Source of the DNA: Rhodospirillaceae bacterium Spongia-Bin9
GTDB taxonomy: Bacteria; Pseudomonadota; Alphaproteobacteria; Bin65
Direction: 5' to 3'
Assembly (NCBI GenBank): GCA_900197615.1
Contig: FZLR01000002.1
Span: 1 to 64,000 of the forward strand
DNA: 64,000 nucleotides
Shown: in pieces, positions 48,549 to 52,273 of the stretch
Layout: each line of letters begins with the position of its first letter
How positions within the stretch are numbered: the first letter of the stretch is position 1
Made by a program: the position numbers and the translations under genes
The notes under the pieces: model-generated
What the model saw: only the letters and a program-made list of their open reading frames with translations
Told to the model about the DNA's origin: nothing
The model's database searches: none

Positions 48549-49433
48549 TCAACTGTCGAACAGGTCTTTCGGCGAACCGCCCATCTGGGCCAGCGACGCG
48601 TGCATTTTCTGCAGCGCCCGGCTCTCGATCTGCCGGATCCGCTCCTTGCTGACGCCGAATTCGACGCCGATCTCGGCAAGGGTGCTCTTGTCCTCTTCCA
48701 GGAAGCGGCGGACGATGATGCGCCGTTCCCGCGGGGTCAGCTTGTCGAGCGCGGTTTCCAGCCACTTCTTCCGTGTCCGCCGGCCGCTGGCATTGGCAGC
48801 CAGTTCCTCCGGCCCGGGGCCGGTATCCTCCAGCAGGTCCTGGAATTGCGCGCCATCGTCCTCCAGGCCGATCAGCGCGTTCAGCGACTGGTCCGGACGG
48901 GTCAGGTGCAGCTCCATGCGCTCGACATCGGCAACGGTCACGTCCAGCTTGTCGGCGATGATCTGCCGTTCGTCGGTGGTCAGCTGGCCGTCGAAACCGG
49001 TGCTGAGCTGGGCGCGCAGCCGGCGCAGGTTGAAAAACAGCCGGCGCTGCTTCGGCGTCGTCGCCGCGCGCACGATGGAGGAATTGCGCAAGATATAGTT
49101 CTGGATCGACGCGACGATCCACCAGGACGCATAGGTCGAGAAGCGGACTTCGCGCTCATGGTCGAAACGCTCGACCGCTTCCATCAGGCCGATATTGCCT
49201 TCCTGCATGAGATCGGCCATCGGCAGGCCGCTCGAGCGGAAGCCGGCGGCGATCCGCACGACGAGCCGGGCGTGCGCCTCGATAATCTCGTGCATCGCGC
49301 GCTCGTCGCGCTTTTCGTTCCAGCGCCGGGCGAGGTCGACTTCGTATTCCCGCTCCAGAACGGGCGCATCCATCGCCGCCGAGATATAGCGCCGATTGCT
49401 CCGTTCCGTTGCGGCAGAGTCTGCGTAAGCCAT
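48549..49433 (-). CDS. rpoH: RNA polymerase sigma factor RpoH (sigma-32)
   Basis: A 294-residue heat-shock sigma factor. The RpoH box QRRLFFNLR is at residues 129-137, region 2 includes DLMQEGNIGLMEAVERFDHE and RFSTYASWWI, and region 4 ends with the helix-turn-helix TLAEIGVEFGVSKERIRQIE. It directs transcription of chaperone and protease genes. Alphaproteobacteria often carry several rpoH copies, so this may be one paralogue. It is divergent from the MarR gene across a 130-base AT-rich gap. Confidence 0.93.
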   Translation of the reverse strand: MAYADSAATERSNRRYISAAMDAPVLEREYEVDLARRWNEKRDERAMHEIIEAHARLVVRIAAGFRSSGLPMADLMQEGNIGLMEAVERFDHEREVRFSTYASWWIVASIQNYILRNSSIVRAATTPKQRRLFFNLRRLRAQLSTGFDGQLTTDERQIIADKLDVTVADVERMELHLTRPDQSLNALIGLEDDGAQFQDLLEDTGPGPEELAANASGRRTRKKWLETALDKLTPRERRIIVRRFLEEDKSTLAEIGVEFGVSKERIRQIESRALQKMHASLAQMGGSPKDLFDS

Positions 49434-49476
49434 GGGGCTACCGCATCCTTTCGTGGATTCCGAATTTCAAGTGATT

Positions 49477-49534
49477 TCGACTCGACAATATATGACACGC
49501 AATATAATTACAAGGAAAAAATATCGACTCGACA
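49477..49534. repeat. Direct repeat in the rpoH-marR divergent gap
   Basis: TCGACTCGACA occurs at 49477-49487 and again at 49524-49534, 47 bases apart, flanking an AT-rich core (about 49488-49523). The placement between divergent rpoH and a MarR-type regulator gene is what one expects for paired operator sites, but no binding is shown. Confidence 0.5.
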
Positions 49535-49563
49535 TCGGTTGGGCGGGGCCTAGTTACGGTTGC

Positions 49564-50238
49564 ATGATCGGCATGCCGTCTGTCCAGGCCTCCACAGAGT
49601 CCGCGCCGGCGTCCAATGGACGCGCCGCCAATGGCTGCGATCCCTGCGCGAACGGCAACGGCAAGACCGACGGCGACCCCTCCATCGACCGTATGACCAG
49701 CCTGGTCGACCGCCTCGGGCGGGCGGTCCATTGCCTGCAGTTTGCCGGCGGCCTCAACCCGGCGCAATGGGCCGCTCTGCGCTATCTCGGCCGGGCCAAC
49801 CGCTACTCGCGCACCCCCACCGCCATCAGCGACTATCTCGGCACGACCCGCGGGACGATGTCGCAGACCATCAAGGCTCTGGAGGCCAAGGGCCTGATCG
49901 GCCGCGAGACGAGCGGCCGGGACAGGCGCGCGGTCCTGCTCCGGCTGACCGGGGCGGGCGAGGCGGCGCTGGAGAACGACCCGCTGCACTGTGTCGCGTC
50001 GGTCGCCGGCGTGCTGGGCGACGAAATGGACGAAGCCAGCCGCTTCCTCGACCGCGTAGTCGATTGCCTGCAGGCGAAAAGCGGCGGCCTCAACTATGGC
50101 GTGTGTACCGATTGCACGCATTTCTGCCGCAACAGCTTCGCCGAGGATGTGCACCGCTGCGGTCTGACCGGCGATCCGCTGTCGGTGGCGGACAGCACCA
50201 AGATTTGCGTGAACTACGGCGACGCGGCAGCTTCCTAG
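49564..50238 (+). CDS. MarR-family transcriptional regulator with cysteine-rich C-terminus
   Basis: A 224-residue protein. Residues about 44-168 are a MarR winged helix-turn-helix unit (LNPAQWAALRYLGRANRYS, ISDYLGTTRGTMSQTIKALE, wing GRETSGRDRRAVLLRLT). The last 45 residues carry a cysteine cluster: Cys181, 184, 188, 199 and 215, with His186 and His198, in the order CX2C, CX3C, CX10C, CX15C. A further CX2C pair is at 25 and 28. The tail looks able to hold a metal or Fe-S cluster, suggesting redox or metal sensing; this is inference. ATG 49564 fits best, but the ribosome site is weak and upstream starts are open. Confidence 0.78.
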   Translation: MIGMPSVQASTESAPASNGRAANGCDPCANGNGKTDGDPSIDRMTSLVDRLGRAVHCLQFAGGLNPAQWAALRYLGRANRYSRTPTAISDYLGTTRGTMSQTIKALEAKGLIGRETSGRDRRAVLLRLTGAGEAALENDPLHCVASVAGVLGDEMDEASRFLDRVVDCLQAKSGGLNYGVCTDCTHFCRNSFAEDVHRCGLTGDPLSVADSTKICVNYGDAAAS

Positions 50239-50247
50239 CCGGCGCGC

Positions 50248-51384
50248 TCATCGCGACGGTTCCACCCGGAGCACGCGCCCGTCCTCGCTGTCCGTCAACA
50301 GCCAGATATAGCCGCGCGGCCCGACCCGCACGTCGCGGATCCGTTCGTCAAGGTCCTCAAGCAGCATCTCCTCCTGCACCGGCCGCGTGCCGTCGAAACG
50401 CAGCCGGACCAGCATCCGGAAGCCGAGGGCGCCGACCAGCATGTCGCCGCGCCACGTCTCGAAGACCGGACCGGTCACGAAGGCCATGCCCGAAGGCGCG
50501 ATCGACGGATCCCAGTAATGGACCGGCTGTTCGAGGCCGGCTTTGTGGGTCCCTTCGCCGATTCTGCCGCCCCAGTAGTGCCGCCCGTAGGCGATGATCG
50601 GCCAGCCGTAGTTGCGGCCGGGCTCGGGAATGTTCACCTCGTCGCCGCCGCGCGCGCCATGCTCGTGAATCCACAGCTTGCCGGTCACCGGATGCAGCGC
50701 CGCGCCTTGCGGGTTGCGATGGCCGTAGGACCAGATTTCCGGGCGAAACCCCTTGCGGCCGACGAAAGGATTGTCTTTCGGAACCGAACCGTCCCTGGCG
50801 ATGCGGATGACCTGGCCGCGATGGATGCTCGTGTCCTGGGTGCGGCGGCGCTCGCCGCGCTCGCCCAGGGTGACGAAGAGGGCGCCGTCGCGCGCGATGA
50901 CGATGCGCGAGCCGAAATGCCGCCCGCCGCGAGATTTCGGCGCCATGCGGAAGACGATCTTCAGGTCGGTGAGGGCATTGCCGTCGAGCCTGGCGCGCGC
51001 AACGGCGGTTCCGGCGCCGCCACGGCCCGGTTCGGAATAGGAAAAGAAGATTGTTCGGTTCCGGGCGAAATCGGGATCGGCGACGACATCGAGCAGGCCG
51101 CCCTGGCCGCGCGCCGCAACCCTGGGCACGCCGCGGACCGGCGCCCCGACGCCGCCGTTGCGGGTCACGATGCGCAGGCGCCCCGGCCGTTCGGTGACCA
51201 GCATCCGGCCCGACGGCAGGAAGGCCAGCGACCAGGGATGGTCCAGGCCGCGGGCGACGGTGACGACCTTGAGCGGGCCGGCGCTGGATTGGAAGGTCCT
51301 GGCTTCTGCCTGCACCGTCGGCGCGAGCACGGCGGCGAACGCGGCGGAAAGAAGGCGAGGGGAGATGCGGGTCGGGCGGCGCAT
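50248..51384 (-). CDS. PQQ-dependent sugar dehydrogenase (soluble aldose dehydrogenase type)
   Basis: A 378-residue periplasmic beta-propeller of the GSDH/YliI family. A signal peptide covers about residues 1-26. Family segments include LDHPWSLAFLPSGRMLVTER, GGRHFGSRIVIARDGALFVT, GHRNPQGAALHP and WIHEHGARGGDEVN; the histidine in the first of these corresponds to the conserved catalytic base region. It oxidises aldoses using PQQ. ATG 51384 yields the signal peptide; the frame remains open upstream into the terminator hairpin, which rules out longer starts. It is convergent with the MarR gene, 9 bases apart. Confidence 0.86.
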   Translation of the reverse strand: MRRPTRISPRLLSAAFAAVLAPTVQAEARTFQSSAGPLKVVTVARGLDHPWSLAFLPSGRMLVTERPGRLRIVTRNGGVGAPVRGVPRVAARGQGGLLDVVADPDFARNRTIFFSYSEPGRGGAGTAVARARLDGNALTDLKIVFRMAPKSRGGRHFGSRIVIARDGALFVTLGERGERRRTQDTSIHRGQVIRIARDGSVPKDNPFVGRKGFRPEIWSYGHRNPQGAALHPVTGKLWIHEHGARGGDEVNIPEPGRNYGWPIIAYGRHYWGGRIGEGTHKAGLEQPVHYWDPSIAPSGMAFVTGPVFETWRGDMLVGALGFRMLVRLRFDGTRPVQEEMLLEDLDERIRDVRVGPRGYIWLLTDSEDGRVLRVEPSR

Positions 51385-51518
51385 GAAGCTGTTCCGGGCA
51401 GTCGTCTCTGTACCGGATATGAGGATTGCCGCCCCGGCGCCAAGCATTTTCCGGTCGCGGTCGGACGCCCGCGGGCGGATAAGGCCGGAAGCCGCTGCCA
51501 GCAGGGATAGAAGCCGGG

Positions 51519-51551
51519 AAAGAAAAAGCCCCGCCAGTATACCGGCGGGGC
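51519..51551 (-). terminator. Strong intrinsic terminator on the minus strand upstream of the sugar dehydrogenase
   Basis: GCCCCGCC (51528-51535) and GGCGGGGC (51544-51551) form a perfect 8-bp stem with an 8-base loop. Read on the minus strand it is followed by TTTTTCTTT; on the plus strand no T-run follows. It must end a minus-strand transcript that begins in the gap upstream of the dehydrogenase gene. Confidence 0.8.
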
Positions 51552-51657
51552 GCAAGTCTCGGTGTCAGACACATTGTTGGGGGAGATGACGGAGGTCAAA
51601 ACCAATGTATCTGGCAATCCCCTTGTAGCAGAATTTCGGCATCGATGTGTGATTTTT
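51519..51657 (-). ncRNA. Candidate small RNA (or attenuated leader) with anti-Shine-Dalgarno loop
   Basis: Between a candidate promoter (51664-51691) and the strong terminator (51519-51551) lies about 130 bases with no convincing gene on the minus strand. It can form a stem ACATTG/CAATGT (51608-51603 with 51576-51571) closing a 26-base loop that contains ACCTCC and CTCCCCC, pyrimidine-rich anti-ribosome-site motifs resembling those exposed in known alphaproteobacterial trans-acting small RNAs. A small 5' hairpin (51649-51662) is also present. An alternative is a conditional terminator in the leader of the sugar dehydrogenase gene, 134 bases downstream. No family match could be run. Confidence 0.5.
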
Positions 51658-51663
51658 ATCACG
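51648..51663. promoter_or_regulatory. CRP/FNR-type palindrome
   Basis: TGTGATTTTTATCACG matches the CRP consensus TGTGA-N6-TCACA with one mismatch; its core GTGAT-N4-ATCAC is a perfect inverted repeat. It overlaps the predicted start of the small RNA, where a bound regulator would block transcription. It could equally be just the 5' hairpin of that RNA. Confidence 0.4.
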
Positions 51664-51691
51664 CTTATGAATTATTTGTGTTCAGAGACAA
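51664..51691 (-). promoter_or_regulatory. Candidate promoter of the small RNA
   Basis: TTGTCT (51691-51686) and CATAAG (51669-51664) are spaced by 16 bases on the minus strand, each matching consensus at four of six positions, in a locally AT-rich stretch. Confidence 0.38.
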
Positions 51692-52036
51692 TACGTCACA
51701 TGGTATTAGCTCGCGAAACTAAACCGCCACGTCGATTTGCCGCGATGCCGTTTCCGTAGACTGTCGGTCTTTCGGCAGTTCGAACCGCGGAACGGCGCGT
51801 CGGCGACTGTCCCGGCGACTATCCGGCGCCGGGTTGCTGGCCAACCGCTGCGCCCTGTGTTATCGGGTCGGGCCGAAGGGCTGGGAGAGCGGTTCGGAGT
51901 GCCGGAAATTTCCGCGTCAAAAGGCGCGTGGCAGGAGAACGCACAGGCACGCATGTCGGAGCTTTCCCGTCGGAGCGTCCTTCGCGCCGGTTCCGCTGGC
52001 GCCCAATCACCGGAAAAGTACCAAGGAAAGAGTCAC
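51692..52036 (+). other. Non-coding leader region upstream of acpP
   Basis: This 345-base stretch carries no gene I can support. The frame of acpP stays open through it, but the translation has no similarity before the ACP start and composition is unlike coding sequence. It presumably holds the acpP promoter and leader; I could not assign boxes confidently. Confidence 0.4.
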
Positions 52037-52273
52037 ATGAGCGACGTTGCAGATCGCGTGAAGAAAATCGTTGTCGAACATCTGGGCGTCGACGAGGCCA
52101 AGGTGTCCGAGGATGCAAGCTTCATCGACGATCTCGGCGCGGACAGCCTCGACACGGTCGAACTGGTCATGGCGTTTGAGGAAGAGTTCGACATTGAAAT
52201 TCCGGACGATGCTGCCGAGAAAATTACAACCGTCAAGGATGCGATCGATTTCATCGGCGAAATGAAATCCTGA
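52037..52273 (+). CDS. acpP: Acyl carrier protein
   Basis: A 78-residue acidic helical carrier. Ser37 in [18 protein letters not shown] is the 4'-phosphopantetheine attachment site. It carries growing acyl chains in fatty acid synthesis and lipid A formation. ATG 52037 starts [12 protein letters not shown], with AAGGAAAG about seven bases upstream. fabF follows after 173 bases, as in most proteobacteria, but fabD and fabG do not precede it here. Confidence 0.95.

Follow-up and report, generated by a model that had tools for sequence, protein, structure and literature searches.

In the window (the whole stretch of 64,000 nucleotides of DNA from Rhodospirillaceae bacterium Spongia-Bin9 that was analysed), the minus strand of the gap between acpP and the gene for a PQQ-dependent glucose/sorbosone dehydrogenase (GSDH) is best read as a stand-alone gene for a small RNA (sRNA) with a C-rich loop complementary to ribosome-binding sites. 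We favor this reading because sequence, structure, promoter and terminator are conserved, and because copies occur away from GSDH in sister genera. Judged from the sequence, the product is probably a stand-alone trans-acting anti-Shine-Dalgarno sRNA of about 97 nt, under the control of a Crp/Fnr-family protein and assisted by Hfq. The features on which the analysis is based are the following.

50251 to 51384, minus strand: GSDH gene (PF07995, 464.6 bits), conserved neighbour
51519 to 51527, minus strand: U-tract TTTTTCTTT, read from the sequence
51519 to 51615, minus strand: small-RNA gene, predicted transcript of about 97 nt, start deduced from the position of the -10 hexamer
51528 to 51551, minus strand: rho-independent terminator stem-loop, 8 perfect base pairs, 10 with G-U
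51566 to 51576, minus strand: 3' arm of an 11-bp stem, CAATGTGTCTG (fold, pairs counted)
51577 to 51586, minus strand: UCUCCCCCAA, unpaired in the MFE and centroid folds, candidate target-pairing (anti-Shine-Dalgarno) seed
51587 to 51598, minus strand: inner hairpin UGAC-CUCC-GUCA with a CUCC tetraloop (folds; helix invariant)
51603 to 51613, minus strand: 5' arm of the 11-bp stem, CAGATACATTG (fold, pairs counted)
51622 to 51627, minus strand: predicted -10 hexamer TACAAG within the invariant block TCTGCTACAA (alignment)
51648 to 51663, minus strand: CRP/FNR-like operator CGTGATAAAAATCACA (TGTGRCAAAAATMRCA in relatives), with its centre some 40 bases upstream of the predicted start (alignment)
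51687 to 51702, minus strand: second conserved block CATGTGACGTATTGTC (CATGTGACRWATNGTC), 36-37 bases upstream of the operator, with 10/20 bases invariant around it
52037 to 52273, plus strand: acpP (PF00550), conserved neighbour on the side opposite to GSDH

The gene, its fold and its conservation

Computationally, the gene is conserved together with its structure, its terminator, its operator and the spacing of the latter. Covariance model R1 matches at 51520-51615 with 109.6 bits. The terminator reads GCCCCGCCGGTATACTGGCGGGGC-TTTTTCTTT on the minus strand from 51551 to 51519; the perfect 8-bp hairpin followed by a U-tract, which the original prediction had recognized, is thus present and extends to 10 bp if G-U pairs are counted, and it is equally correct that no minus-strand gene reads into this terminator or ends there. 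The long minus-strand frames opposite acpP and fabF (a neighbour confirmed through its ketoacyl synthase domains) are antisense frames. A coding reading of the minus-strand ORF that crosses the region (51165-51662) was ruled out, because a single base is deleted from the loop of one relative (G005) and the frame encloses the terminator. Beyond GSDH, and convergent with it, lies a gene for a MarR-family regulator (49432-50235, plus strand).

The main hairpin is built on an 11-bp helix, CAGAYACAUUG/CAAYGUGUCUG, of which the ACATTG/CAATGT pairing proposed earlier is real and constitutes the inner part. Of the ACCTCC motif, formerly thought to be exposed as a whole, CUCC is indeed in a loop but AC belongs to the inner helix UGAC/GUCA, and the long unpaired stretch is instead UCUCCCCCAA. 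The z-score of the fold is -5.4 for the window and -6.7 for a relative (G001), with none of 200 shuffled sequences equally stable. The anti-ribosome-site character of the loop is suggested by its complementarity.

A DNA search of 61 genomes recovered the segment in six of the seven members of the window genus (the window's own genome included), all six of which preserve the acpP-GSDH synteny; among the other genomes searched the only match was one of 29 bases to the terminator. In relatives acpP is 95-99% identical. The seventh genome (G006) belongs to the most diverged member of the genus (GSDH 71% identical); both neighbour genes are present there and the RNA is absent. Alignment of the syntenic gap, which had been suggested as a check, shows loop and terminator conserved between acpP and GSDH in all six species: the number of invariant bases reaches a maximum of 18/20 at 51589-51570 and falls to 0-2/20 on either flank, and both the loop TCCGTCATCTCCCCCAAC and the unpaired UCUCCCCCAA are invariant. 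All 11 pairs of the outer stem are formed in every species, three of them varying through G-U exchange, and the terminator helix contains one compensatory change; within the genus all stem changes keep pairing. Covariation at this level is weak because the sequences are close. Overall, with sequence, structure and terminator conserved in six species, the suggestion of a candidate small RNA is supported. A scan of GTDB genomes yielded matches in four contigs (VXNK01000162, JAJEGH010000004, WTGH01000022, MPMX01000012) of metagenome-assembled genomes whose records are titled Rhodospirillaceae bacterium or Alphaproteobacteria bacterium, and which, judging by isolate names such as bin65, are presumably from marine-sponge metagenomes.

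Operator, regulators and related units in sister genera

TACAAG is found 12 bases before GCCAGAYACATTG, and the palindrome another 28 bases upstream, a placement predicted to be class II-like for a Crp/Fnr-family site. The promoter pair originally put forward, GTGACG/AATAAT at 51699-51671, does exist in the sequence, but since its -10 half, AATAAT, is not conserved we dropped it in favor of the operator and TACAAG; the predicted 5' end consequently moves from about 51691 to 51615, and the transcript shortens from about 170 to about 97 nt. The block at 51702-51687 overlaps the -35 half of the discarded pair and is similar to the operator's left half (CATGTGRCAAWAA); it may represent another activator site, or belong to the acpP promoter on the opposite strand.

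The operator of the window genus deviates from the CRP consensus at one or two positions, and the distance from its centre to the -10 is 28 rather than 29 bases. The Crp/Fnr-type proteins of this genus have only FNR-type recognition helices (VETVSR, KPETFSR, TPESVSR): no RETVAR-type protein was found in it, and each genome has 0-1 consensus CRP sites. The protein with the TPESVSR helix is listed for every one of the six genomes with the sRNA but not for G006, which amounts to a single contrast. The operator would thus be read either by an unlisted regulator or by an FNR-type protein.

Units of like architecture occur in three sister genera, and in two of these they are in tandem. Genome G007 has three tandem units directly upstream of GSDH, each consisting of TGTGACGGCCGTCACA, a ACACAUCGG/CCGAUGUGU hairpin, loops such as UUCCCCAUCUCCCCUCCUUCCCCGCC and a terminator. 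Genome G009 has five units, each with a CRP-type operator, four of which stand in a row on one contig (L137, C110:10900-12700) while one is separate (L124, on C76). Genomes G008 and G010 have one unit each, at a locus other than GSDH. The operator of the sister genera is TGTGAC-N4-GTCAC(A/T) (TGTGACNNNNGTCAC(A/T)); the pattern TGTGAYNNNNRTCACA occurs 30 times in G007-G010 (13, 7, 6 and 4 by genome), and the reversed control pattern 0 times. In 11 of 58 oriented sites, some of which precede genes and some sRNA units, a TAnnnT stands at exactly 29 bases from the centre of the palindrome, with 0-3 occurrences at each of the other offsets; this peak therefore points to class II promoters. The hexamers of G007 at +29 (CATGGT, CACAAA) are weak. 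Each of the four genomes has a gene for a Crp/Fnr protein whose helix, TTRETVAR, is of the CRP type, and GTGACNNNNGTCAC fits the published consensus of Sinorhizobium Clr, GTNNCNNNNGNNAC (PMC10127613).

Across genera the outer stems have in common an ACACA/UGUGU core, and the unpaired UCUCCC recurs in the sister-genus units. Comparison of the stems of the window genus with those of G007, for which the arms were entered by hand and which is indicative only, reveals that both sides have changed, from G-C to A-U and from U-A to C-G. Homology of the window-genus RNA to the G007 units, which are also syntenic, is likely, while homology to the G009 units is uncertain; primary sequences have diverged too far between genera for homology to be told from convergence. 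A scenario that we offer as tentative is that of a new family of CRP-regulated anti-Shine-Dalgarno sRNAs, multiplied in tandem across the order. After losing its CRP-type regulator, the window genus would have put its sRNA under an FNR-type protein, leaving an operator intermediate between CRP/Clr and FNR sites. Tandem units with a shared operator, together with the absence of a CRP-type protein where the operator has drifted, would make a concrete example in which to study how regulators are exchanged at sRNA promoters.

Relation to known RNAs and alternative readings

At Rfam gathering thresholds the sole match in the window is a TPP riboswitch (RF00059, 58373-58515, plus strand, 57.7 bits, above the gathering score), with no match at the sRNA; there is likewise no match at threshold in the relatives of the genus, and the units of the sister genera match only below threshold. 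The original prediction, which had proposed this search, was therefore right to claim no named family. Among papers accessible without subscription, a literature search found no description of this RNA. The best sub-threshold match at the sRNA is suhB/alpha-r8 (RF00519), at 27.0 bits versus a gathering score of 41, and the RNA might accordingly be a diverged member of that family (alpha-r8, suhB/MmgR) and not of a separate one. Four of the five G009 units reach 25-30 bits with the same model, and the overall arrangement, with a hairpin, a C-rich stretch and a terminator, is alike; a rho-independent terminator is present at the sRNA as in alpha-r8, although, being common to most sRNAs, it does not discriminate. 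All of these scores, however, are far under 41, and those of the genus orthologues are only 18.9-21.1 bits. What defines alpha-r8 is a 10-mer, UUUCCUCCCU, that is internal and single-stranded and comes after a weak hairpin (PMC12559287); this invariant 10-mer is absent from the sRNA alignment. A genuine alpha-r8, with GGGCGUUUCCUCCCU and the diagnostic UUUCCUCCCU, is found elsewhere in every species of the genus (44-49 bits), in the window genome at C314:3723-3796 on the minus strand (L232, 45.5 bits). The sRNA is thus not the alpha-r8 orthologue, since it scores below 41 and the genuine one is present in the same genome, and we regard its being a diverged member of the family as unlikely. The ar14 model (RF02344) gives at most 26.5 bits versus 58.8, and only in the units of G010 and G008.

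Slightly less probable still is that the segment is a 5' leader attenuator of GSDH, in which transcripts would stop at the terminator unless a signal permits read-through, an alternative already raised in the original prediction. The segment is on the same strand as GSDH, whose start (51384) is 135 bases downstream of the terminator in the window genus, and the three units of G007 are also directly upstream of that gene. This alternative is disfavored because equivalent units occur away from GSDH: those of G008, G009 and G010 are at other loci, and the GSDH genes of these genomes have no unit in front. Furthermore, in the tandem series of G007 and G009 every unit has its own operator and terminator, as expected from a small-RNA layout, and neither a conserved antiterminator pairing nor a leader ORF nor an Rfam riboswitch was seen at the sRNA locus. 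Finally, that there is only a terminator beside unrelated conserved acpP promoter DNA, with no functional small RNA, is very improbable: the segment does lie between two genes, an acpP promoter has to be somewhere between them and the block at 51702-51687 could be part of it, but conservation peaks in the hairpin loop and not in the promoter, the fold is far more stable than shuffled sequences, and the sister copies are away from acpP.

The small RNA is best read as representing a separate family, analogous in its predicted workings to CyaR and alpha-r8. CyaR is CRP-activated and Hfq-dependent and targets the Shine-Dalgarno sequences of mRNAs such as ompX (PMC11795201), and we propose the RNA described here as a counterpart: a CRP-type operator is found at the class II position before the -10, matching the consensus and with a spacing of 29 in the sister genera. 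The two differ in that Rfam scans detect no sequence relation and the order of the hairpins is not the same; moreover, what is seen here is the spacing of the operator, from which activation is deduced, and in the window genus the activator is only putative. The sRNA resembles alpha-r8 and the Caulobacter SisA-D RNAs in having a terminator and a C-rich anti-Shine-Dalgarno stretch that is exposed; unlike alpha-r8, it lacks UUUCCUCCCU, and its C-rich stretch is contained in the first hairpin and does not follow it. SisA-D also exist as multiple siblings per genome, but their promoters are unrelated (PMC12559287), whereas the sibling units described here have a common CRP-type operator. Hairpin loops with an anti-Shine-Dalgarno motif are known also from SmelA075 and SmelA099 (PMC3927594; compare ar14, RF02344), which have three or four hairpins each with CCUCCUCCC, as opposed to one main hairpin with UCUCCCCC.

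Proposed action, candidate targets and wider searches

We infer the following about how the RNA is transcribed, which protein activates it, whether Hfq binds it, what it targets and in which direction it regulates them. Transcription would start near 51615 from the -10 hexamer TACAAG, with the -35 region overlaid by the CRP/FNR-like operator in a class II arrangement; given this position of the operator, a Crp/Fnr-family activator probably switches the sRNA on. In the predicted fold, a long hairpin that displays CUCC and UCUCCCCCAA precedes the terminator, whose U-tract could load Hfq (an hfq gene is present in 10 of 11 genomes, the window's included). The C-rich stretch UCUCCCCC would then pair with the G-rich Shine-Dalgarno sequences of several mRNAs and repress their translation. 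The loop is the complement of GGGGGAGA, a sequence that few genes have ahead of ATG, and the sets of such genes differ between the six species: a search for GGGGGAGA-N-ATG found no target common to all six, the maximum being four, which was reached by a 7Fe-type ferredoxin and a DUF1330-like protein; among those matched in three species are a livG-like ATPase and rpsR. G000 (the window genome) and G005 share none of these recurring matches.

If this reading is correct, the uncultured and apparently sponge-associated order has an sRNA family so far without a name, and this family is tied to a regulator of the cyclic-nucleotide/oxygen type (Crp/Fnr), as in enterobacterial CyaR and apparently independently of it. 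The covariance model can be used at once for searching metatranscriptomes. Outside the genus it identified no locus in an acpP-GSDH gap except the G007 units; its class-wide matches of 28-40 bits, for the most part GC-rich terminators that follow genes, were excluded as homologues.

When 387 members of the class were scanned for the combination of operator, spacing, TANNNT and CTCCCC, six genomes matched, and the reversed control pattern gave none among the matches listed. Three of the six belong to one genus (g37) of a family (f34) in another order, and have a near-identical conserved unit with a terminator. Finds of this kind outside the order are leads, not homologues. If they are true analogues, such RNAs may commonly be produced under CRP-type regulation in Alphaproteobacteria. 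The candidate sRNA of genus g37 (L069, L070, L071) is led by a CRP site and comprises TGTGANNNNNGTCACT, TATAGT, the loop GCUCCCACUCCCC and a terminator; a tRNA gene, called in L069 and L070, lies about 120 bases upstream. A search of a plasmid collection with this candidate gave no match. A further CRP-site-led segment, with UUUCCCUCCCUCCCC, was observed at L067 (G160, C10) and is possibly another anti-Shine-Dalgarno sRNA.
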